32,509 nucleotides of DNA from Rhodothermales bacterium (GTDB taxonomy: Bacteria > Bacteroidota > Rhodothermia > Rhodothermales > Bin80), in assembly GCA_012267425.1 (NCBI GenBank), contig JAAXGO010000037.1, positions 1 to 32,509 on the forward strand, in the 5' to 3' direction. Made by a program: the position numbers and the translations under genes. The notes beneath the pieces were generated by a model. It saw nothing but the letters and a program-made list of their open reading frames with translations, ran no database searches and was not told the DNA's origin. Positions within the stretch are counted from its first letter, which is position 1. The number at the start of each line of letters is the position of its first letter. Shown here in pieces: positions 14,819-27,457 of the stretch.

Positions 14819-14910
14819 ATGTACGGAGCAGGCATTTTTCTTTGCGCACAGTATCATTGTCGGCTTCCGGGAGTATCACTGATCCTTCGCACTGAAAAGC
14901 GGCACGTTCG

Positions 14911-15978
14911 ATGGTATACACGGTCATAATGGCCGGGGGAATTGGGAGTCGTTTCTGGCCGCGAAGCCGTGAGGCGTACCCGAAACAGTTTCTCAATGTC
15001 TTCGGCGAAGCAACCTTGCTGCAGCAGACGCTGCAGCGCATGAAAGGAATAGTTCCGCCGGCCCGCAGCTTCGTCGTCACGCACCAGCGCTACGGAGAAC
15101 TTACTCGCCGTCAGCTGCCCGAGCTGCCAGCAGAACACGTTCTCGAAGAGCCCATCAGCCGCAACACGGCACCATGCATCGCCTATGCCGCCATCAAGCT
15201 CCTTGCCCACGATCCGGATGCCGTAATGATGGTGCTTCCCGCAGATCACCTTATCCGCGACCACGCAGCCTTTCAGGCGGCTCTGCGCGTGGCCATCGAG
15301 GCTGCACAGGAAAAAGGCGCTCTCGTAACGATTGGTATCACACCAACCCACGCGGCAACCGGCTACGGCTACATACAATTTGATGGCAACCTTGACGGAA
15401 AACTTCACGCCTATCCGGTGAAGACCTTCGCCGAAAAACCGAACGTAGCGACGGCGGAACGTTTTCTTGACTCCGGAGACTTCTTGTGGAACAGCGGCAT
15501 GTTCGTGTGGCGTGCCGACACGATCGTCGAGTCTATTCAAAAGTATCTTCCCAAGTGCTATGCAGCTTTTCTCGGACTCGGCGGCGCCATCGGCACACAG
15601 TATGAAGACGAAGCCGTCCACGCCGCCTATCGCAAGAGCCCGCGCATTTCGATCGACTACGGCGTCATGGAGCGTGCAGACACCGTGTACGTCGTACCAG
15701 GATCGTTCGAATGGAACGACATCGGAGACTGGCGAGCCGTCTACGACCTGAGTCAGAACGACGATCACGGCAACGTGCTGCACAATCACGTCATCGTTCA
15801 CGATTCGAGTCGCTGCTACGTCGACGCCGGTTCCCGGCTGATCGTCCTGGTCGGCATTCACGACGCCATCGTGGTCGACACCGACGATGCATTGCTCATC
15901 TGCCACCGAGAAAGCGCACAGCAGGTCAGAAACGTTGTCGAATACCTCCACGCCCATCAGCTCGAGCAGTACGTCTGA
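14911..15978 (+). CDS. manC: Mannose-1-phosphate guanylyltransferase
   Basis: This 355-residue protein is of the single-domain type without a fused mannose-6-phosphate isomerase. It starts VYTVIMAGGIGSRFWPRSRE, which holds the nucleotide-binding signature GGxGxRxWPxSR, followed by PKQFLNVFG. It continues with ISRNTAPCIAYAA, the metal-binding LPADH (about residue 111), TGYGYIQF, VKTFAEKP and FLWNSGMFVW, and ends its core with SFEWNDIGDW. It makes GDP-mannose from GTP and mannose-1-phosphate. It is transcribed away from ugd, and no downstream gene is closely spaced (100 bases to tetR). GDP-mannose probably feeds the same surface glycan as the surrounding nucleotide-sugar genes. Confidence 0.95.
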   Translation: MVYTVIMAGGIGSRFWPRSREAYPKQFLNVFGEATLLQQTLQRMKGIVPPARSFVVTHQRYGELTRRQLPELPAEHVLEEPISRNTAPCIAYAAIKLLAHDPDAVMMVLPADHLIRDHAAFQAALRVAIEAAQEKGALVTIGITPTHAATGYGYIQFDGNLDGKLHAYPVKTFAEKPNVATAERFLDSGDFLWNSGMFVWRADTIVESIQKYLPKCYAAFLGLGGAIGTQYEDEAVHAAYRKSPRISIDYGVMERADTVYVVPGSFEWNDIGDWRAVYDLSQNDDHGNVLHNHVIVHDSSRCYVDAGSRLIVLVGIHDAIVVDTDDALLICHRESAQQVRNVVEYLHAHQLEQYV

Positions 15979-16078: not shown

Positions 16079-16705
16079 ATGCTTACATCCTACGCCCGAC
16101 TGCCTCGGCGCGATCGCGAACGGCACGCACGGCGCCGCGACATTCTCGCCGCCGCGAGTGCAACATTCGCCGAAAAGGGGTATGCGCACGCGACGCTGGA
16201 TGAAATAGCTCAGCGCGCAGAATACTCTAAGGGAACGCTCTACAACTATTTCAGCGGCGGCAAGGAGGACATACTCTTCTCCATCGTTGACGAGTTTCAG
16301 ATCGAACTCATACAGCTTGTCAAAGACGCGTTTCCGGCAGACTCCACGGGGTTTCGGGACGCGCTCGCCGGATTGATCACCGCGTGGAACGCGTTTTTCG
16401 AAGAGCGCCGAGAGCTCTTCATGATCATGATCAAGGAAGCCTATTGGAGCGTCTTTGACGACAATCCTGGGCGTGCCTCGTTTTTCCAGGCATACTATGC
16501 AGCGCTCGTAGAGGCTTTTCGTCCTGCGCTCCGCCGCGCCATGGATACAGGCGAAATCCGGACACTGCCGATCGACGCCACCGCCCACGTGATCCTTGCT
16601 AACCTCAAGAACCTGCAGATGCAGATTTGTCTTAGGGATGCACCTGCGCCCGAGGAAGGGGCGGAATTCCTTACTACCGTTCTGTGCGACGGACTGCTGA
16701 ACTAA
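16079..16705 (+). CDS. TetR/AcrR family transcriptional regulator
   Basis: This 208-residue protein has an N-terminal TetR DNA-binding domain at about residues 17-65: RRDILAAASATFAEKGYAHA, then TLDEIAQRAEYSKGTLYNYF, a textbook helix-turn-helix. The C-terminal ligand/dimer domain is helical and not recognisable to subfamily. Regulators of this type repress efflux genes and release DNA when a small hydrophobic compound binds. It stands 14 bases before tolC, so it is probably the first gene of the efflux operon and controls itself and the pump through the dyad at 16029-16063. Confidence 0.93.
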   Translation: MLTSYARLPRRDRERHARRRDILAAASATFAEKGYAHATLDEIAQRAEYSKGTLYNYFSGGKEDILFSIVDEFQIELIQLVKDAFPADSTGFRDALAGLITAWNAFFEERRELFMIMIKEAYWSVFDDNPGRASFFQAYYAALVEAFRPALRRAMDTGEIRTLPIDATAHVILANLKNLQMQICLRDAPAPEEGAEFLTTVLCDGLLN

Positions 16706-16719
16706 AGACGAGGCTCCTT

Positions 16720-18300
16720 ATGCGACCACTGTGCCTCAACGGAATCACGATTGCTATGGTGTTCGCGTGCTGGTCTCCGGCTCAGGCGCAGAACATCGTC
16801 ACGCTCACGCTTGACGAAGCAATCCAGATTGCGCTTGTCAGCAACTACGCCCTGCAAGAGGTACGCATGGATGCGGCGGTGGCCCGAGCCGAAGTGCGAA
16901 ACGCCTGGAGCGAGACGATGCCACGCGTTGACGCGAGCAGCGGGTACACGCGCAACCTAAGAACGGCTAACCCTTTTGCAGGCAGTGCCGCCGGTGATTT
17001 TTTTTCGGGCTTCGCCTTCATCGGCTGGCTAGCCTATAACGAAGACGCGCGTACCGACGACGACCCTACAACGATGCCGATTTCGTTTGACGAATTCGAC
17101 CGGCGGCAAACGCAGGGCCTCGAAGATGCAAACATTGTCCTCGCCGGAGGGGACAACCCGTTCCAGGTCGAGAACCAGTTCGTCTCGACGATCAACGTCA
17201 CGCAGAAGCTCTTCGATAGTTCAGCCATGGCGGGACTCCGTGCGGCTGCTCGCGTGTCGGACGTGTTCTCAAGAGCAGTAGATCGGCAGGAACAAGTGGT
17301 TATCGACCAGGTGCGGCGGGCCTTCTATCAGGCTCTCCTCGACCGCGAGCGTGCACTGGTCGCGGCCGAAAGCGTTGTACGCGCCGAAAAGACGCTTTCT
17401 GAAACCACGCGCCGCGTCGCTCAAGGCGTCGCTCCCAAGTTCCAGCGGCTCAGCGCCGACGTTCAGCTGGCCAATCTGCAGTCCTTGCTCGTCGATACGG
17501 AAAACCGGGCCGACGCAAGCCTTGACGACTTCAAATTTCTTCTCGGAATCCCGGTCGAGACGGACGTGCGGCTCCGGGGATCGCTTGAAGCCGACACGCA
17601 CTGGTTCGCCGTGTCCGATGGAGACGCCGTAGCGGCGGCCTTGGATCGGAGGCCGGATCTGGAACAGGCACGACTTACCGAAGAGATCCATGCCCTCAAT
17701 CTCAGCGTCGCGAGGTCCAACCGCATTCCCAAACTGTCGGCATTTGCAAATCTCAGTTTTCTTGGCAGCGTCCCGGATAACCGCACGTTCACGATCACCA
17801 GTAACGACGATCCATTCCTTTTCACAAAAGGGCAGAATGATTTCTTCAGCTCGTCATACTGGCAGCCGTCAATCAACGTCGGCTTTAGTCTAACGTGGAC
17901 GCTGTTTGACGGCTTTGCAACCTCGGCTCTCATCCAGCAGCGAAGGATAGACATCAGTCGGGCCAAGCTGCAGACTCTCAGTCTGCGGGAAAGCGTCCGC
18001 CTGGAAGTGGCACGCGCGAAGCGCGACCTGGCCGGCGCCCGGCAACAGATCGCAGCCCAGGAAAAAAACGTCGCGAATGCAGAGCTGAGCTATACCTATG
18101 CGAGTGCCCGTCTGGCCGAAGGTGTTGCCACACCTCTCGAAGAGCGGGACGCTTCGGACCAACTGGACCAGAGCCGCCTGAACCTTCTACAAGCCGTGTT
18201 TGATTTTCTCGTCGCCCGAAGCGCATTCGAAACGGCTGTCGGCATTCCTCTCGGGCAGCAGTCTGACATACAGCTAACCAGTAACCGATCGGTGCCGTAG
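16720..18300 (+). CDS. TolC-family outer membrane efflux protein
   Basis: This protein of 526 residues starts from ATG 16720, preceded by a GAGG Shine-Dalgarno element seven bases upstream; an earlier in-frame GTG at 16684 lies inside tetR. A signal peptide is visible (hydrophobic GITIAMVFACW, cleavage near AQA-Q at residue 23). The mature protein has the duplicated outer-membrane-efflux repeat: LTLDEAIQIALVSNYAL with the long helices around 165-260, and a second copy from about residue 300 with LDRRPDLEQARLTEEIHALN and FSLTWTLFDGFATSALIQQ. It forms the trimeric outer-membrane channel of the RND pump. The first strand-to-strand loop (about residues 81-152) is unusually long and acidic. Confidence 0.93.
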   Translation: MRPLCLNGITIAMVFACWSPAQAQNIVTLTLDEAIQIALVSNYALQEVRMDAAVARAEVRNAWSETMPRVDASSGYTRNLRTANPFAGSAAGDFFSGFAFIGWLAYNEDARTDDDPTTMPISFDEFDRRQTQGLEDANIVLAGGDNPFQVENQFVSTINVTQKLFDSSAMAGLRAAARVSDVFSRAVDRQEQVVIDQVRRAFYQALLDRERALVAAESVVRAEKTLSETTRRVAQGVAPKFQRLSADVQLANLQSLLVDTENRADASLDDFKFLLGIPVETDVRLRGSLEADTHWFAVSDGDAVAAALDRRPDLEQARLTEEIHALNLSVARSNRIPKLSAFANLSFLGSVPDNRTFTITSNDDPFLFTKGQNDFFSSSYWQPSINVGFSLTWTLFDGFATSALIQQRRIDISRAKLQTLSLRESVRLEVARAKRDLAGARQQIAAQEKNVANAELSYTYASARLAEGVATPLEERDASDQLDQSRLNLLQAVFDFLVARSAFETAVGIPLGQQSDIQLTSNRSVP

Positions 18301-18303
18301 CCT

Positions 18304-19452
18304 ATGATTCTTCCCATGAAACTACGCCAATTCTCTTCAATTCTCTGCTTCTCTCTCATCATGTCGGCCTGCGGCGGCGACGAAGACATGGCCGACACCG
18401 GCAGTCCAGCGCCGTCGACACGGGTTGAAACGCTCCTTCTCACTACCGATGCATTCGAGGACGTGATTGAACTCACCGGCACCGTCGAAGCCGTCAATGA
18501 CGCAACGCTGTCAGCGCAAACCGCGGGAACCGTGGTCATGCTTTCTGCACTCGGTACGCTGGTCGACCGTGACGAGGCCGTCGCGCAGCTAGACCAGGCG
18601 CTCCTTGAGGCCGCTCTGGAGCAGGCCGAAGCTGGCCTCGAAACGATGCAGGCCCAACTCGATCTGGCCGAGGACACCTACACACGGCTGGAGCCGCTGT
18701 ACCGGGACTCCATCTTCAGCGCCCTTGAGTTCAAGAACGTCCTTGCTCAGAGGCGGCAGGCCCAAGCGGCCGTTCGTCAGGCTGCTGCAACCGCGACACA
18801 GGCGCGTGAACAGTTCGCCAACACGACGATCCGCGCACCCTTCGCCGGTACCGTCGAGGCACACCTCGTCGAGCGCGGAGAACAGGTCGCACCCGGCGTC
18901 CCGGTTGCGCGCATCGTCGATACGCGGCGTGTCAAGATTTCCGTCGGCGTCCCCGAGCGCTACGCTGGTGACATCGCCGTCGGCACAGAAGTCTCTTTCG
19001 GCTTCGCCGCCTACGGAGGTACTCGCCGCACGGGCACGGTGACATTCGCTGGAAGTGCCATCAACCCCGAAAACAGGACCTTTGCCGTTGAAGCCGAAGT
19101 TAGCAACAAGGACGGACGACTCAAACCGGCGATGATTGCGGAGGTATTCGTCACCCGGCAACGTCTCGACAGCGTCCTGATAATACCACGCGCGGCGGTC
19201 GTGCGCGATGAAGCAGGCCACAACGTGTATACCGTCTCGAATGACGACCGCGCACAGAGTGTGAGCGTAACGCTGGGGCCGTCCCATGAAGGACGCGTTA
19301 TCGTGGAAAGCGGCCTTGAACCGGGTACCGAAGTCATCGTCTTGGGCCATACCACGGTAACAGATGGCGATCGTGTGGCTGTGGACGCTCGCTATACCGC
19401 GCTCGACAAAGTTGGTGTCCCAATCCGGCCAGAAGCCAGCGTGCGCCAATGA
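18304..19452 (+). CDS. RND efflux periplasmic adaptor lipoprotein (membrane fusion protein)
   Basis: This 382-residue protein has a signal peptide that ends in a lipobox, LIMSAC (Cys23), followed by GGDED, so it should be lipid-anchored; a second ATG at 18316 is a possible start. The order of parts is typical of AcrA/MexA proteins. A lipoyl half (TVEAVNDATLSAQTAGTVV) comes first, then a coiled-coil hairpin at about residues 95-170 and the second lipoyl half (TTIRAPFAGTVEAHLVERGE). The beta-barrel (VKISVGVPERYAGDIAVG) and the membrane-proximal end (VIIPRAAVVRDEAGHNVYTV in shortened form) follow. It links the inner-membrane permease to the TolC channel. It starts four bases after tolC and overlaps the permease start (ATGA). 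Confidence 0.94.
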   Translation: MILPMKLRQFSSILCFSLIMSACGGDEDMADTGSPAPSTRVETLLLTTDAFEDVIELTGTVEAVNDATLSAQTAGTVVMLSALGTLVDRDEAVAQLDQALLEAALEQAEAGLETMQAQLDLAEDTYTRLEPLYRDSIFSALEFKNVLAQRRQAQAAVRQAAATATQAREQFANTTIRAPFAGTVEAHLVERGEQVAPGVPVARIVDTRRVKISVGVPERYAGDIAVGTEVSFGFAAYGGTRRTGTVTFAGSAINPENRTFAVEAEVSNKDGRLKPAMIAEVFVTRQRLDSVLIIPRAAVVRDEAGHNVYTVSNDDRAQSVSVTLGPSHEGRVIVESGLEPGTEVIVLGHTTVTDGDRVAVDARYTALDKVGVPIRPEASVRQ

Positions 19453-22400
19453 AGATCACTGCTCTTGCAATCAAGTACCGGCCCAGCGTCGCCATTCTGA
19501 CGGCGCTGCTCACGCTTGGGGGACTGACCAGCTACATCACGATTCCGAAGGAATCTTTCCCGTCAATAGAGATCCCCAACATCGTCGTAACGACGGTGTA
19601 TCCAGGCGCAAGCCCCGATGATATTGAATCACTGATCACCAAACCGGTTGAGCAAGAGATTCAAAGTGTCAACGGTATTACGGAAATCCGCTCAACCTCG
19701 GTAGAAGGCGTCTCAACGGTTATTATCGAATTCGACCCTGAGGTGTCGATCACCGAGGCGTTCCAAAAGGTGCGCGACAAGGTGAGCATCGCGAAAGCGG
19801 AGTTGCCAAGCGACGTGGAAGAGCCGCTCGTAAGCGAGATCGACCTGCAGGAGTTTCCGATCATGTCGATCAACATGGCGGCGCCCTATTCGCTCGCCCG
19901 TCTTAAGGAAGTTGCCGAAGAGCTTGCCGAAGAGCTTGAGGCCATCCCAAGCGTCTTGGAAGTCCCCATCGTGGGCGCTCTGGAGCGCGAGGTGAAAGTC
20001 AACATAGATCTGAACGCGCTACAGGGGTACGCTCTGACGTTCGATGACGTCATTTCTACGATTCAGCGGGAAAACGCCAACATTCCCGGCGGCTCGATGA
20101 ACGTAGACCGGCTCAACTATCTCGTGCGAATTGACGGTGAGTTCGACGAGCCCGAGCGTGACATCGGAAACCTGGTTATTAAGAGCCCGAATGCGAGGCC
20201 CGTGTATGTCCGCGACGTGGCGGATGTTGACTTCGGCTTTAGGACCCGCTCCAGTTACGCCAGACTGCGCGTACTGCAGGTGGAGCAAGACAACCGCCTG
20301 ATCCAGCTTCCGAGCAATCGGACGGAAACGATGCAGGTCGTGACGCTGAATATCAAGAAGCGGTCCGGCGCAAATATCCTCTCGACGGCAAACGAAGTGG
20401 ACGCCGTTCTTGACGGTTTTCCCCTTCCAGAAGGAACGGAAGTCGTCATTACCGGAGACATGAGCGAACAGGTGCTGACCTTTGTCAAGGACCTGGAAAA
20501 CAACATCATCAGCGGACTCATCTTCGTGGTGCTGGTGCTGTTGTTTTTCCTCGGAGTGCGCAACGCCACTCTGGTCGGGATTGCGATTCCGCTTTCGATG
20601 TTTCTGTCGTTTATCGTCTTACAGGTGATGGGGCAGGATCTCAACTTCGTGATTCTGTTTTCCCTCATCATTGCGCTCGGCATGCTCGTTGACAATGCCG
20701 TGGTGATCGTCGAAAACATCTACCGATTCCGGGAGATGGGCCATTCGCGCTTCGACGCGGCTCGGCGCGGGACGGCCGAGGTCGGCAGCGCTGTCGTTGC
20801 ATCAACGGCGACGACCGTCGCGGTCTTTGTTCCGATGCTGTTCTGGCCGGGTGTCATCGGCAAGTTTATGAGCTACCTGCCGATGACGTTGATTATCACG
20901 CTGTCGTGCTCGCTTTTCGTTGCGATCATCATCAACCCGGTCATTACGGGGTATTTCGTGCGTCTGGAAAGCGAAGACCCGCTAGCGCGGCCACGCTTCG
21001 CTCGCCTTCTGTTTGGCGCCGTCATTGTCCTCGTCGCGCTGACTATCGTATTCTCGAACTGGAAAACCGCGGTCGTCCTCGCGGTCGCCATTCCTGTGTT
21101 TTGGGCGGTCCAAAAGTACGTTTTCAGTCCGGTTGCACAGCGTTTCGTGCAGAAGAAGCTGCCCGAGTTATTGGGGGGCTATCGGGTCTTCCTCCTTCGA
21201 ATGCTGGAGCGTCGCTACGATCTCCACGATGCGCTCTTCCAACGCAGGATTCTGTGGATGGTGACTGCGCTCGTCGCGATCGCAGGGTGCGTACTCGTCG
21301 CGATAGGTATCACAGCCACCGTGCCCGCCGGGCAAGCAGCAATGGGTGTCGGAATTCCGCTGTTTCTTGCCGCTGCCGTCTTGCCGCTTGCCATCTTGAT
21401 GAGGACTCGCAATTCCTTCCTTCGCAATACCTTCGCGCTGGGTGCTTTTTCGCTGGGCGCCGCCCTCCTTGTCGCCGGCGGCGTCGTCGCCAACTTGATG
21501 GGTATGCAGGCAGGTCTCATTCTGCTTTTGCCTGGCGGCCTCTTTGTCGTCGCCGGTCTATTGGCAATCCTACTCCATTCGCTCGAGACAATCTACTTGG
21601 GTGGAATAACCAGCGTGAAGGCGGGACTCGTGTTTTTTGCCGTCAACACCGTTGTTTTGTTGCTCATGGCGCTGGCACGCGACGTAGAATTCATCACAGC
21701 AGTCAACCTTGTCATGCTGCCCGTCGTAATTGTAGTGGTTGGACTCGTCGGCGTTCTGCTTAATGGGCGGCTTCTTAGGCGGCGCACGGAGCTGCTACTA
21801 ACCGACAACAGGGCCCGACTTCTTACCTGTACGCTTGGTGGCCTCTTCGGCATCCTGGGACTCTATGCGACCGCACCCACCGGCGTCGAATTCTTCCCTG
21901 ACACTGATCCGACCTTCGTAAACATTAAGCTGGAAGCTCCATTGGGCACGAACGTCGACGAAACCAATCGCGTAGCGGCGGAAGCACAGACGCGTGTCAA
22001 CGCCCTGTTGGAAAGCAACGCCAACGATCGCGACAACATCAAGAACATGCTCGTCAGTGTCGGCGTCGGCGGCGACGTGTTCTTCGGTGGCGGGGCTTCG
22101 GGCGCCGAGAGTTCGACGTTGACGCTCAACATGGTCGATTATGCCGACAGGCCCGAGTCGAGCGACAACACGATGACCCGCCTGCGGGAGCAACTCCGGG
22201 GCATTCCCGGCATCGAAATCGATTTCGAAAAGGACTCCGCCGGACCGCCCGTCGGGGCGCCGGTTAACATCGAGATCTCGGGCGAAGACTTCGACGAAAT
22301 CGTCCGAATCACGCGCGGAGTAAAACAGCAGCTCGTTCAAGCGTCATCAGCAGGCACGATTATGGGCCTCGTTGACATCGCCGACAATCTCAACACAGGT

Positions 22401-23453
22401 CGCCCGGAAGTGCGGGTCAACATTGATCGCGTGCGGGCTGCTCGCTTCGGTCTCAACACGCGCCAGATCGCAAACACCGTACGCACGGCCATTAACGGCT
22501 TCGAAGCCAGCAAGTATCGGACCGGCAAAGACGAACACGACATCATCGTACGCTTGGCGCAGGGACAGAGAGAGAGTTTGGAGGCAATCGAAAAGCTGAC
22601 GATCGAAGAGGACGGTGTCCAGATACCGATCACGGCCGTAGCTGACTTCGAGATCGTCGGTGGGCTGGGCTCGATAACCCGGCTGGATCTCGAACGAGTG
22701 GCTACCGTGACGGCGGACATTGCACCCGGCTACAACGGGGCTGCGGTCTTGGCACAGGTGCAAGAATACCTCAGTCCCTACGAAGCAGAGCTCGCTGCGG
22801 GATACCGCATGGCATACACGGGTGAAAACGAGGAGCAGGCCGAGTCCTTCGGGTTTTTGTTCACGGCCCTGCTTATTGGTGTCGCCTGCATTTTCATGAT
22901 CATGATCGCGCAGTTCAACAGCGTTGCAACCCCGTTCATCATCATGGTGGCCGTCGGGCTGAGTCTGATCGGCGTGCTGTTGGGTCTCATTCTCACGCGG
23001 ACTCCGTTTGGTCTGATGACTTTCATCGGCGTGATCAGCCTAGCGGGCATCGTGGTCAACAACAACATCGTCCTCATCGACTACATACAGCAGCTCCGTG
23101 ATCGTGGTCACTCGAAGATTCAGGCGATCGTAGAAGGAGGTGCAACAAGACTTCGTCCAGTGGTACTTACCACACTGACAACTATCATCGGTCTCGTACC
23201 GCTCACTTTTGGCATCCAACTAGACTTCGTGGGTCTCTTGACGGATTTCGCTCCGAATCTCCAGTTCGGATCGGAGAACACGCAGTTTTGGGGTGCAATG
23301 GGAACATCGATTATCAGTGGGCTGACGTTCGCCATTTTTCTGACGCTCGTCATTGTCCCGGTCATGTATTCGGCATTCGATTCCGTTGCCCAAGCTCTCC
23401 GTGGCGCACTGCGGTCGCCGGCTGATACGAATTCAATAGCACCGGCTTCCTGA
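19449..23453 (+). CDS. RND efflux permease with an extra ~270-residue membrane region
   Basis: At 1334 residues this is well above the usual ~1020-1050. The N-terminal half is ordinary: TM1, the porter domain (FPSIEIPNIVVTTVYPGAS, VEQEIQSVNG), TM2-TM6, and the TM4 proton-relay segment GMLVDNAVVIVEN, which has a single Asp where AcrB has two. Around residues 512-785 (bases about 20982-21801) lie roughly eight additional hydrophobic segments, for example LLFGAVIVLVALTIVF, AMGVGIPLFLAAAVLPLAIL and VNLVMLPVVIVVVGLVGVLL. The normal second half resumes at VEFFPDTDPTFV (about residue 813) and has the second porter domain and TM8-TM12. It should expel small molecules using the proton gradient; substrates are unknown. 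Confidence 0.94.
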   Translation: MKITALAIKYRPSVAILTALLTLGGLTSYITIPKESFPSIEIPNIVVTTVYPGASPDDIESLITKPVEQEIQSVNGITEIRSTSVEGVSTVIIEFDPEVSITEAFQKVRDKVSIAKAELPSDVEEPLVSEIDLQEFPIMSINMAAPYSLARLKEVAEELAEELEAIPSVLEVPIVGALEREVKVNIDLNALQGYALTFDDVISTIQRENANIPGGSMNVDRLNYLVRIDGEFDEPERDIGNLVIKSPNARPVYVRDVADVDFGFRTRSSYARLRVLQVEQDNRLIQLPSNRTETMQVVTLNIKKRSGANILSTANEVDAVLDGFPLPEGTEVVITGDMSEQVLTFVKDLENNIISGLIFVVLVLLFFLGVRNATLVGIAIPLSMFLSFIVLQVMGQDLNFVILFSLIIALGMLVDNAVVIVENIYRFREMGHSRFDAARRGTAEVGSAVVASTATTVAVFVPMLFWPGVIGKFMSYLPMTLIITLSCSLFVAIIINPVITGYFVRLESEDPLARPRFARLLFGAVIVLVALTIVFSNWKTAVVLAVAIPVFWAVQKYVFSPVAQRFVQKKLPELLGGYRVFLLRMLERRYDLHDALFQRRILWMVTALVAIAGCVLVAIGITATVPAGQAAMGVGIPLFLAAAVLPLAILMRTRNSFLRNTFALGAFSLGAALLVAGGVVANLMGMQAGLILLLPGGLFVVAGLLAILLHSLETIYLGGITSVKAGLVFFAVNTVVLLLMALARDVEFITAVNLVMLPVVIVVVGLVGVLLNGRLLRRRTELLLTDNRARLLTCTLGGLFGILGLYATAPTGVEFFPDTDPTFVNIKLEAPLGTNVDETNRVAAEAQTRVNALLESNANDRDNIKNMLVSVGVGGDVFFGGGASGAESSTLTLNMVDYADRPESSDNTMTRLREQLRGIPGIEIDFEKDSAGPPVGAPVNIEISGEDFDEIVRITRGVKQQLVQASSAGTIMGLVDIADNLNTGRPEVRVNIDRVRAARFGLNTRQIANTVRTAINGFEASKYRTGKDEHDIIVRLAQGQRESLEAIEKLTIEEDGVQIPITAVADFEIVGGLGSITRLDLERVATVTADIAPGYNGAAVLAQVQEYLSPYEAELAAGYRMAYTGENEEQAESFGFLFTALLIGVACIFMIMIAQFNSVATPFIIMVAVGLSLIGVLLGLILTRTPFGLMTFIGVISLAGIVVNNNIVLIDYIQQLRDRGHSKIQAIVEGGATRLRPVVLTTLTTIIGLVPLTFGIQLDFVGLLTDFAPNLQFGSENTQFWGAMGTSIISGLTFAIFLTLVIVPVMYSAFDSVAQALRGALRSPADTNSIAPAS

Positions 23454-23526: not shown

Positions 23527-25050
23527 GTGCAACAGCTTTCGGACTTTCCGGACGCGCACCTGCGTATCTTCGAGCGGCCTCAGCTGCCTGCTGCGGAGCT
23601 CATCCAGGATGTCTATTTCATAGGCATCTGTGGGACGGGCATGGGATCGTTGGCTGGCCTCCTCAAACAGGCGGGCTGCACCGTGCGTGGTTCCGACAGC
23701 GGCGTCTATCCTCCCATGAGCACGCGGCTGGCCGAGATGAGTATCCCCATTCACGACGGCTACACTGCTGCCCACCTCGACGACGCGCCCGACCTCGTGG
23801 TGGTTGGCAATGCATGTGTCCCGACCCACGTGGAAGCGGCAGTTGCACGCGAGCGCGGTCTGACACAGGCATCGTTGCCGGAGACGCTTGCCCATTTCTT
23901 CCTCCGCACACGCCGCCCGCTTGTCGTGGCGGGAACCCATGGCAAGACCACGACGACCGGTATGCTGGTGCACATCCTTCGTGCGACCGGGCGCGACCCC
24001 GGCTTTCTCGTCGGCGGTGTGATGAACGAATACGGTGACAGCTACGATGTGGGAAGCGGACCTCATTTCGTGGTCGAGGGAGACGAATACGACTCAGCGT
24101 ATTTCGACAAGGAGCCGAAATTCATGCACTACAACCCGGCGAGTGCCATCGTCACGTCGCTGGAGTTTGACCATGCCGACATATACAGCGACATGGACGA
24201 CTATAGGCAGGCGTTCGAGCGGTTTGTCGCATTGGTCAAGCCGCCGGGCGTGCTCGCTTTGTGGGGCGACGATCCCGGTGTCCGTGCGCTCGCTTCCTGC
24301 TCGACGGCCCGGATCATTACATTTGGGCTCTTGCCCGATACGGACATAACGGCAACGAATATCGAACGCGTAGCCGCCGGGCAGCGGTTTACCCTCAAAG
24401 CCGAAGGGAGAAGGCCAAGCACGCTCTTTCTGCCAATGAGTGGGAGGCACAATCTCCTTAATGCCCTTGCGGCCTGTACGATTGCGCTCAGCGAGGGTCT
24501 CTCAGTTTCCGAGCTTGAAGGCGCACTCTCAACGTTCAAGGGCATGAAACGCCGCCAAGAAATACTGGGAGAGTTCTCGGGTGTGCTCGTCGTCGACGAC
24601 TTTGCGCATCATCCGACTGCGGTGCGCGAAACTATCCGCGCTGCTCACGAGCGGTGGCCCAACCGGCGTTTGATCGCGGTCTTCGAGCCGCGCAGCAATA
24701 GCAGCCGGCGCAAGGCGTTCGAAAAGCCTTATGCCGATGCCTTCGCCGACGCGTCGAAGGCGTACTTGAGCACGCCACCGTTTAGGCATAACGACGACCG
24801 ATCCCGATTCATGGACACGAAGACATTGGTACGTACTATCACGGCGCGGGGCACGCCTGCCCGAGTTTTTTCCGGTGCGGACCACCTTCTACGGAGCCTC
24901 ATCGGCGACGCGCGCTCGGGAGACGTGGTTCTCGTAATGTCCAACGGTGGATTCGGCGGACTGCAGCAGCACTTCCTTTCGGCACTTCGTAAGCGCTCCG
25001 CATTGGAACACGCACCGCCCGGCAGTCTTCAAGCCACAGGTTTGAAGTAG
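23527..25050 (+). CDS. mpl: UDP-N-acetylmuramate:L-alanyl-gamma-D-glutamyl-meso-DAP ligase (peptidoglycan recycling)
   Basis: This 507-residue Mur-ligase family protein has an N-terminal UDP-binding domain with VYFIGICGTGMGSLA (29-43), GSDSGVYPPMS, the P-loop GTHGKTTT (136-143), and LVGGVMNEYGDSY. The VEGDEYDSAYFDKEPKF stretch is diagnostic of Mpl rather than MurC. The central domain continues with TSLEFDHADIY and the C-terminal domain has VVDDFAHHPTAVRETI and VFEPRSNSSRR. It joins the recycled tripeptide to UDP-MurNAc in the cytoplasm. The start is GTG; no ATG is available before the conserved nucleotide-binding motif. It is four bases upstream of the CcmF-like gene, an unrelated function but possibly the same transcript. 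Confidence 0.94.
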   Translation: MQQLSDFPDAHLRIFERPQLPAAELIQDVYFIGICGTGMGSLAGLLKQAGCTVRGSDSGVYPPMSTRLAEMSIPIHDGYTAAHLDDAPDLVVVGNACVPTHVEAAVARERGLTQASLPETLAHFFLRTRRPLVVAGTHGKTTTTGMLVHILRATGRDPGFLVGGVMNEYGDSYDVGSGPHFVVEGDEYDSAYFDKEPKFMHYNPASAIVTSLEFDHADIYSDMDDYRQAFERFVALVKPPGVLALWGDDPGVRALASCSTARIITFGLLPDTDITATNIERVAAGQRFTLKAEGRRPSTLFLPMSGRHNLLNALAACTIALSEGLSVSELEGALSTFKGMKRRQEILGEFSGVLVVDDFAHHPTAVRETIRAAHERWPNRRLIAVFEPRSNSSRRKAFEKPYADAFADASKAYLSTPPFRHNDDRSRFMDTKTLVRTITARGTPARVFSGADHLLRSLIGDARSGDVVLVMSNGGFGGLQQHFLSALRKRSALEHAPPGSLQATGLK

Positions 25051-25054
25051 CACA

Positions 25055-27457
25055 ATGGCAGGTATCGTCGGTCACCTTCTGATCATCACGGCGTTCGTAA
25101 GCGCCGCGTTAGCCGTCTTTGCGTTTTTTCGTGCGGCGGAATACGAAGCTGTTGACATCGCAGACTTCAAGCGCATCGGACGCTCGGCATGGACGGTAAT
25201 GACCGTGTGTCTCTTCGGCGCATGGGCGTTGATGATAGTGCTTCTTGCCACACACCAGTTCCAGTACAACTATGTGTGGGGCCATTCGTCGCGCGACTTG
25301 CCGTGGTATTTCCTGTTCTCGGCGTCTTGGGAAGGTCAGGAAGGCTCGTTCCTCCTCTGGATTATCCTCAACTGCATCGTCGGGCTGGCGCTCATCAAAT
25401 GGGCAGCACGCAGCTACGAAGCACCCGTCATGACGGTCGTCGCGTTATGCCAGGTTTTTTTGCTGTCGATGATCGTCGGACTCAAGTTTGGCTCCGTCCC
25501 GATCGGAGCTGCACCGTTTGCCACGCTCGCGGAAGCCAACCCAGATGCTCCGATTTTCCAGACGCTTCCGGGCTTCGTACCGGAAGACGGCACTGGACTT
25601 AACGACCTGCTCCAAAACTACTGGATGGTCATTCATCCGCCGATGTTGTTCGTCGGATTCGCGCTTCTCATTGTGCCGTTTGCTTTCGCCGTTGCGGCTC
25701 TCTGGAAAAAGCGGTACACGGAATGGGTGCGTCCTGCCCTGCCGTGGACACTCGCGGCCGTCATGTGCCTCGGGGTAGGCATTGCAATGGGAGGATACTG
25801 GGCCTATGAAACGCTCTCCTTCGGTGGCTTCTGGGCGTGGGATCCGGTCGAAAACTCTTCCTTCGTTCCATGGCTCACGGGCGTGGCCGCCATCCACCTG
25901 ATGCTCATCCAGCGAAAAGGAGGCATCGGCCACAAAGCAGCACTCTCTTTGTGCATTCTGCTCTACATGTTGGTCGTCTATTCGACATTTCTGACACGAA
26001 GTGGCATTCTCGGCGACGTGTCTGTGCACTCGTTCGTCGATCTCGGACTGTACAACCAGCTCCTTGTCTGGATTCTGTCGATGGGCGTTCTGGGCTTTGG
26101 CCTCCTCGCCTGGCGCTGGCGCGAGCTGCCGAAGGCGCAGAGGGAAGCCAAACCGTTGTCGCGCGAGTTCATGGTGTTTTGCGGTGCTACACTTCTCTGC
26201 GTGGTTGCGGCAGTCGTGATTCTAGGGACGAGCTCGCCGATTTTCGGACGCATATTCCGCGACAATCCGGCCACGGTACCGATCGAGTTCTATACCGACT
26301 GGACGCTGCCGCTGTCGGTCGGATTCGTGTTTCTGGCCGGTTTGGGGCAGCTCTTCTGGTGGAATAAGATGAGCATCGAGACCGTCAACCGCGTACTCAC
26401 GCTCCCGATGGCGCTCGCGGTGGTCTCGACACTTCTCATACTGCTGTTTACGCCGTTCATTGAGCTGTCACTGCACCTCGGTACCCCTAGTGGATTCTTT
26501 GCCGAATACGGCTTTGCACTCCAGCTGATGCTGCTTCTCTTTGCGGCTCTCTTCGCGTTTTTCGGCAATGCTGCTGTGCTTGTGCGGATAGCACGCGGCA
26601 ACCTGCGGTTGGCCGGCGGCGCGCTCGCCCACGTCGGTCTCGGAATCGCAATCATAGGCATCATCACCTCGGCAGGCTTTAGCAATCCGATCTCGAACGC
26701 ACCGCCCGGTTCAGATCGCGACAACTTCGTTCTTGAACGCGACAGACCTCTTGAGGTCGAAGGCTACCGCGTCATGTATGCGGGCACTGAGCCCGGTAAG
26801 CGCGGTCACACACGATTCGTACTCTCGTTCACAGATCCCCGCGGCCACGATTTTACGCTCAAGCCCGTGGCCTACAAATCAAATTCCGGGCAGTGGATTC
26901 AACATCCCGACCTGAAGCTGTTCGTCGAAAAGGACATCTTTGTCGCCGTCACGCCGCGCGAAATGGCAAATCCGGACGGCGCCGACGAAACGGTGCTCGC
27001 ACGCGGGGACAGCGTCCTGGTGGGCGACGGTGCGTTCAGCATCCGATTCGACGCGTTCGATACCACACCCGATCTTGAGCCGTTTTTGAGCGAAAGAGAA
27101 CGTGACCGCATTGAGATTGCCGTCGGGGCGCGTCTCACCGTGCGGCATGTCCCCAGTGGACGCGTGTCTGAACACGTTCCGCTGTATCTCATCGGCACCG
27201 ACCGCAGTGTCCGCACCCTCGCCGCTGAGCATACTGACATGCAAATCCGGTTTACGCGCATGCACGTCGAAACTGGAGAAATCACCCTTACTCTAACCGG
27301 CGTGGCAGGTCCCGACTGGGTGATCGTTCAGGCCTTCGAAAAGCCCGTCATCAGCCTCGTCTGGATCGGCATCATCCTGCTCACGCTCGGGTTTCTTCTG
27401 TCCGTTGTGCGCCGCATAAAAGACGTGCGCGTGAGCATGGAGCGCGGAGCGTTCTGA
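25055..27457 (+). CDS. ccmF: CcmF/NrfE-family cytochrome c haem lyase
   Basis: This 800-residue polytopic membrane protein has the tryptophan-rich WWD haem-handling motif WAWDPVENSSFVPW near residues 260-273. Other CcmF features are YVWGHSSRDLPWYFLFSASW and EGQEGSFLLW near residues 75-105, NDLLQNYWMVIHPPMLFVG, and STFLTRSGILGDVSVHSF. The last ~230 residues form a periplasmic domain (LEVEGYRVMYAG through EHTDMQIRFTRMH) before a final membrane span and the basic tail VRRIKDVRVSMERG. CcmF works in system I cytochrome c maturation, attaching haem to apocytochrome. No other ccm gene is in the window. Its stop codon abuts the stop of the convergent permease gene with no bases between. Confidence 0.92.
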   Translation: MAGIVGHLLIITAFVSAALAVFAFFRAAEYEAVDIADFKRIGRSAWTVMTVCLFGAWALMIVLLATHQFQYNYVWGHSSRDLPWYFLFSASWEGQEGSFLLWIILNCIVGLALIKWAARSYEAPVMTVVALCQVFLLSMIVGLKFGSVPIGAAPFATLAEANPDAPIFQTLPGFVPEDGTGLNDLLQNYWMVIHPPMLFVGFALLIVPFAFAVAALWKKRYTEWVRPALPWTLAAVMCLGVGIAMGGYWAYETLSFGGFWAWDPVENSSFVPWLTGVAAIHLMLIQRKGGIGHKAALSLCILLYMLVVYSTFLTRSGILGDVSVHSFVDLGLYNQLLVWILSMGVLGFGLLAWRWRELPKAQREAKPLSREFMVFCGATLLCVVAAVVILGTSSPIFGRIFRDNPATVPIEFYTDWTLPLSVGFVFLAGLGQLFWWNKMSIETVNRVLTLPMALAVVSTLLILLFTPFIELSLHLGTPSGFFAEYGFALQLMLLLFAALFAFFGNAAVLVRIARGNLRLAGGALAHVGLGIAIIGIITSAGFSNPISNAPPGSDRDNFVLERDRPLEVEGYRVMYAGTEPGKRGHTRFVLSFTDPRGHDFTLKPVAYKSNSGQWIQHPDLKLFVEKDIFVAVTPREMANPDGADETVLARGDSVLVGDGAFSIRFDAFDTTPDLEPFLSERERDRIEIAVGARLTVRHVPSGRVSEHVPLYLIGTDRSVRTLAAEHTDMQIRFTRMHVETGEITLTLTGVAGPDWVIVQAFEKPVISLVWIGIILLTLGFLLSVVRRIKDVRVSMERGAF

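Follow-up and report, generated by a model that had tools for sequence, protein, structure and literature searches.

A Rhodothermales RND permease with eight predicted extra membrane helices between TM6 and TM7

Hydropathy and AlphaFold2 models confirm the prediction that the RND permease encoded in the window (the whole stretch of 32,509 nucleotides analysed here) carries eight extra TM helices between canonical TM6 and TM7, which together with TM1 makes 20. The added block leaves the topology of the pump intact and is a fixed feature of one bacterial class. RND pumps count among the best-studied transporters and their 12-helix layout is treated as constant. Our preferred reading, to which we assign a tentative probability of about 0.45, is that of a PMF-type tripartite RND exporter whose TM6–TM7 linker has been expanded by hairpins into a lipid-facing accessory domain at the protomer flank.

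The permease and its operon

The permease gene is the last of a TetR-OEP-MFP-RND operon that is complete within the window, as judged by Pfam and NCBIfam profiles:

16079–16705, plus strand: TetR-type regulator, first gene of the operon (PF00440, 53 bits)
16684–18300, plus strand: TolC-like outer membrane efflux protein (PF02321, 162 bits)
18304–19452, plus strand: periplasmic adaptor (RND_mfp, CusB/HlyD type) whose signal resembles that of a lipoprotein (TIGR01730 exceeds its cut-off with 234 bits)
19449–23453, plus strand: RND permease of 1334 aa with 20 predicted TM helices (open reading frame, Pfam ACR_tran, AlphaFold2)

Genes for an adaptor and an outer membrane factor thus lie directly upstream of the permease, as in tripartite efflux systems, and the OEP-MFP-RND order is kept in almost all loci with sufficient flank. 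Apart from its block the permease belongs to a regular tripartite exporter (TetR-TolC-adaptor-permease); this context says exporter, without naming a substrate. Directly after the pump stand genes for an Mpl-type Mur ligase and a CcmF-type cytochrome c assembly protein (23527–27457). Mpl follows the pump in most Rhodothermales, and CcmF follows Mpl throughout the family of the window. Divergent to the operon is a gene for a 367-aa protein (14854–15957, minus strand) that has no Pfam match and is kept beside the operon in most Rhodothermales loci, some of which have two copies.

Profile and fold both identify the protein as an RND permease. Pfam ACR_tran reaches 598.7 bits (cut-off 28) in two stretches that cover both halves, the best at residues 4–510, and in a fold search with the permease model the matches listed were solely RND pumps. 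When compared by phmmer with solved RND pumps, the permease aligns up to residue ~500–510 and the match resumes at 787. It stays below the cut-offs of the HAE1 profiles (TIGR00915, 326.9 versus 940.35 bits; NF033617, 527.7 versus 1250 bits), whose scores are lowered because the match is split, and below that of the HME heavy-metal profile (TIGR00914, 344 versus 701.45 bits).

Helices and topology of the added block

A usual RND permease has 12 TM helices arranged as 1 + 6 + 5, and this layout is a feature of the superfamily from which the 20 helices predicted here depart. Hydropathy (19-residue windows, KD at least 1.76) gives eight peaks in residues ~512–785, namely 517–535, 541–559, 601–619, 632–650, 662–680, 690–708, 725–743 and 752–770, and the peak of TM7 (791–809) comes after them. 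AlphaFold2 places helices at 516–536, 538–586 (a TM helix plus the amphipathic linker Ialpha), 600–622, 627–652, 656–684, 686–718, 720–743 and 748–775, with TM7 at 787–808. Ialpha (~561–596) lies inside the block, behind the first added hairpin, and helix A2 is continuous with it in both models that we computed: one of residues 333–1316 (mean pLDDT 77.5, insert mostly 75–92) and one of the insert alone, residues 510–812 (mean pLDDT 91.8, pTM 0.80).

The loop charges of the block obey the positive-inside rule. In an alignment of 60 sequences the cytosolic loops hold on average 3.6, 8.6, 3.0, 1.6 and 5.3 K/R residues and the four periplasmic turns 0–0.6. Since all added helix numbers are even, the second porter domain stays periplasmic. 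The preliminary description had read from the sequence about eight additional hydrophobic segments in residues ~512–785 of the 1334-residue protein, had proposed that an even number of added helices, ~20 in all, would keep the second porter domain on the periplasmic side, and had named TM prediction and AlphaFold as the way to check it. Both agree on eight membrane-length helices plus TM7, and the loop charges bear out the topology.

Pieces of the block and their spacing

Aligned with its homologues, the block resolves into the following parts:

20994–21128, plus strand: added hairpin A, residues 516–560, two helices that precede Ialpha and are shared by the 14-TM RND pumps of Bacteroidota
21129–21242, plus strand: amphipathic linker helix Ialpha, residues ~561–598, seen as a sequence pattern in the alignment and continuous with A2 in the models
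21246–21404, plus strand: added hairpin B, residues 600–652, two helices, found in 16 of the 64 homologues of full length
21414–21773, plus strand: four-helix block C1-C2-D1-D2, residues 656–775, class-wide
21798–21815, plus strand: conserved LTDNRA motif, residues 784–789, at the cytosolic start of TM7
21807–21872, plus strand: canonical TM7, residues 787–808 (phmmer match, AlphaFold2)

Ialpha is the counterpart of the canonical TM6–TM7 linker. The spacing between TM6 and TM7 falls into discrete classes: 35 residues in a 12-TM control from the same genome (one RND gene, read from the two overlapping loci L002/L003), 91–96 in the 14-TM Bacteroidota rows, 220–250 in the 18-helix rows without hairpin B (n = 48) and 280–299 in the 20-helix rows that have it (n = 16). 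Hairpin B is all or nothing, with 45–53 residues in the counted columns or none, and it is wholly missing in the remaining 48 of the 64 homologues. Judged from these alignments, the block is not a single insertion but a set of several pieces, found in discrete forms that differ by helix pairs.

A direction from 12 to 20 helices is the simplest reading; the 14-TM rows served as the chosen outgroup, and the tree does not by itself tell gain from loss. A single gain of hairpin B in one clade was rejected on a quick tree (AU p = 3e-5). The rows that have it do not form one clade, yet the hairpins of two distant rows, L157 and L189, are identical at 24 of 59 positions and look related. Two separate gains are no more likely than a loss or an exchange.

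Conservation within the block

The frequency of the commonest residue is 0.39–0.61 in the added helices versus 0.71–0.94 in canonical TM2–TM6 and TM8–TM12. Canonical TM7 is variable too (0.58). The block helices are therefore far more variable than these canonical ones in the way expected of helices that face lipid. At the same time 19 positions of the six-helix core are at least 97% identical. Within residues 505–790, near-invariant residues are concentrated in Ialpha and where helices end on the cytosolic side (F566, P572, Y578, Y590, R659, N660, H710, E713, T785, D786, R788), and the positions of at least 97% identity within helices are glycines or proline (G703, G726, P758, G765, G768). 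N660, G703, H710, E713, G765 and G768 are invariant in the four-helix block C1–D2; T785, D786 and R788 occur in all 64 homologues and N787 in 63. No invariant charged residue was found in the bilayer part of the added helices of these 64 homologues. The pattern fits a lipid-facing domain that would be attached by its cytosolic face.

Distribution across genomes

Among 39 relatives of the same family and order, 38 have the insert in one open frame, of ~1290–1390 aa where the contig is long enough. The sole relative without it (same order, 99% completeness) has an ordinary gene as its best RND match. At class level every genome searched gave an RND match, and the full insert is present in most of the listed families, though not in all Balneolaceae genomes; named records that have it include Rhodothermus, Roseithermus, Rubrivirga and Rhodohalobacter. 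Within the phylum the insert profile matches in 86 of 297 genomes. In genomes beyond the class, as in some of its other families, only the first ~90 insert positions match, and these frames (1117–1229 aa) are 14-TM pumps with hairpin A only. The commonest RND form in the phylum is the ordinary gene of ~1020–1080 aa. Many Bacteroidota ACR_tran frames reach 1440–1500 aa with an RND match spanning ~3.05–3.1 kb, so that ~400 extra residues lie outside the RND part; these are perhaps a fused outer membrane factor.

The 18-helix form occurs throughout Rhodothermota/Balneolota and sporadically in Myxococcota-type genomes. The loci L187 (Myxococcales), L179 (Deltaproteobacteria) and L144 (from an 11.4-Mb genome) cluster inside the Rhodothermota part of the tree with support 99, and among relatives of these loci the insert profile matches in 3 of 29 and 5 of 28 genomes, centre genomes included. 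In the flanks of the Myxococcota-type loci OEP-MFP-RND is kept and Mpl is not. Tree position and flanks suggest lateral transfer of the operon into these lineages; for L144, L179 and L187 the rival explanation is that of mis-binned contigs. Loci L215–L218 are also among the sporadic 18-TM occurrences in such genomes.

The preliminary description had asked whether the block is confined to one clade and whether its length is simply the ordinary form of a well-described RND subfamily. The full insert is largely bound to the class, apart from the Myxococcota-type genomes, and hairpin A reaches more widely into Bacteroidota. As far as homologous sequences tell, this pump does ordinarily have 18 or 20 helices in its class. 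The second half of that question did not hold: we found no description of an RND permease with such extra helices in the literature, taken here as exclusive of subscription papers, preprints and TCDB, and the expansion is apparently undescribed.

Discussion

According to the reading that we prefer, hairpins would have expanded the TM6–TM7 linker until it became a membrane domain in its own right, with eight helices here and six in most relatives. The domain may flank each protomer on the outside, held at the cytosolic face by Ialpha, the HxxE end of C2 and the TDNR start of TM7, so that the helices turned towards lipid could vary freely. To judge by AcrB, the central cavity of the trimer is probably too small for all 24 added helices. 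Built in as an accessory domain, the block would influence the surrounding lipid and the lateral entry of substrate, or brace the rocking of the transmembrane halves, and could in this be likened to small separate subunits such as AcrZ for AcrB. TM prediction and the AlphaFold2 models, discrete spacing, variable helices, conservation at cytosolic ends, the kept operon and the lack of a free copy among the genomes scanned all speak for an accessory domain; against it stands that a non-functional expansion would also give variable helices.

Such an expansion by constructive neutral growth, in which hairpins are tolerated in a permissive cytosolic linker (even numbers keep the topology) and are kept without a selected function, is a possibility of some weight, although clearly a minority one. 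That a single tolerant linker grows, that the membrane parts are highly variable and that hairpin B is present or missing among close families is what it predicts. It accounts less easily for a six-helix core kept class-wide with its 19 positions of at least 97% identity, for absence of the insert in just one genome of 39 and for retention of the block after apparent transfer to other lineages. At the other extreme, the added helices might be an autonomous functional domain that confers a new ability, for example on cytosolic-leaflet lipid-like substrates or through a different ion or coupling ratio. We consider this doubtful; if it holds, lengthening the TM6–TM7 linker step by step is a way for RND pumps to acquire function.

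It is unlikely that a once-separate membrane protein (a lipid enzyme, flippase or partner subunit) was joined into the linker with an activity of its own. The block alone does fold as a confident bundle in the AlphaFold2 model and has conserved motifs of its own, HxxE and TDNR. However, the block turns up piecemeal and not as one unit, and the search for a match to another membrane family, proposed in the preliminary description, gave nothing consistent. Pfam and NCBIfam gave no match common to more than one or two members, the single weak ones being, for example, DUF6057 and DUF5693. A sequence search of the PDB gave no match to the block, and a PDB fold search none with E < 0.1 (best E 0.34, TM about 0.2). 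No stand-alone copy was seen, as the strong profile matches in relatives and phylum genomes all lie inside RND frames.

Another explanation concerns the proton relay, for which residues D407, D408, K940, R971 and T978 are listed in AcrB (PMC2891726); we take the roles of RND relay residues from the same work and PMC8277102. Two sites of the permease belong here:

20691–20696, plus strand: TM4 relay residues D415-N416, at the positions of AcrB D407-D408
23058–23060, plus strand: TM10 N1204, which takes the place of AcrB K940

D415, R1234 and T1241 keep the equivalents of D407, R971 and T978, and with N416 and N1204 at the D408 and K940 positions the permease has only part of the HAE1 relay set. 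The block might thus be an energy-coupling module, offering an extra or alternative ion path to offset the lost D408-K940 charge pair. In keeping with this, all inspected 18- and 20-TM rows have Asn at D408 and Asn, Val or Ile at K940 (Val/Ile in the Balneolota relatives), and H710 and E713 are invariant. But among the 14-TM relatives some combine DD with K/R and others DN with NN, the latter being L118, L119, L121 and L122. The relay change is not tied to the block, since it occurs in these pumps without the four-helix block. Together with the kept D407, R971 and T978 equivalents and the added helices in which no invariant mid-helix charge was found, this makes the coupling module quite improbable. 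Of the roles raised in the preliminary description it fares worst, and a putative lipid-facing role fits best.

Internal duplication, by which hairpins would be copied from one another or from RND helix pairs, could explain why all are similar in size and have cytosolic ends, but hhalign shows no similarity between hairpins or between a hairpin and an RND pair, while the control comparison of TM5–6 with TM11–12 gives P = 5e-4, and we regard it as very improbable. An artefact (frameshift, chimeric contig or mis-called fusion) might be feared in a genome of 487 contigs with 89.85% completeness and 7.04% contamination, but chance and frame or assembly error are excluded because the insert frame is conserved across the class, and dozens of independent genomes, among them single-contig chromosomes (CP030158.1 is one), encode this architecture in a single open frame.

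The 14-, 18- and 20-helix forms make a natural series for the study of helix gain in transporters and of the tolerance of the TM6–TM7 linker, and forms with and without each hairpin are ready-made comparisons. With HAE1-type pumps (AcrB, MexB, CmeB, MexK, MdtB; PF00873) the permease shares two RND halves with porter domains, the TM4/TM10/TM11 core and the OEP-MFP-RND operon, but it has 20 TM helices and not 12, ~290 residues between TM6 and TM7 and not ~35–45, and D408 and K940 are replaced. The 14-TM Bacteroidota permeases (ORFs of 1114–1203 aa) likewise carry hairpin A behind TM6 and in front of Ialpha, their profile match covering insert positions 2–90, and differ by having neither hairpin B nor the four-helix block. 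The 18-TM relatives in Rhodothermus, Roseithermus, Rubrivirga and Rhodohalobacter are the same pump, ~47–65% identical, with the same operon, hairpin A and block C–D; 18-TM pumps of Rhodothermota/Balneolota differ from it in lacking hairpin B. As an analogy only, AcrZ-like helper proteins also place extra membrane helices beside an RND transmembrane domain; AcrZ is a separate single helix, whereas the block helices are part of the permease chain.
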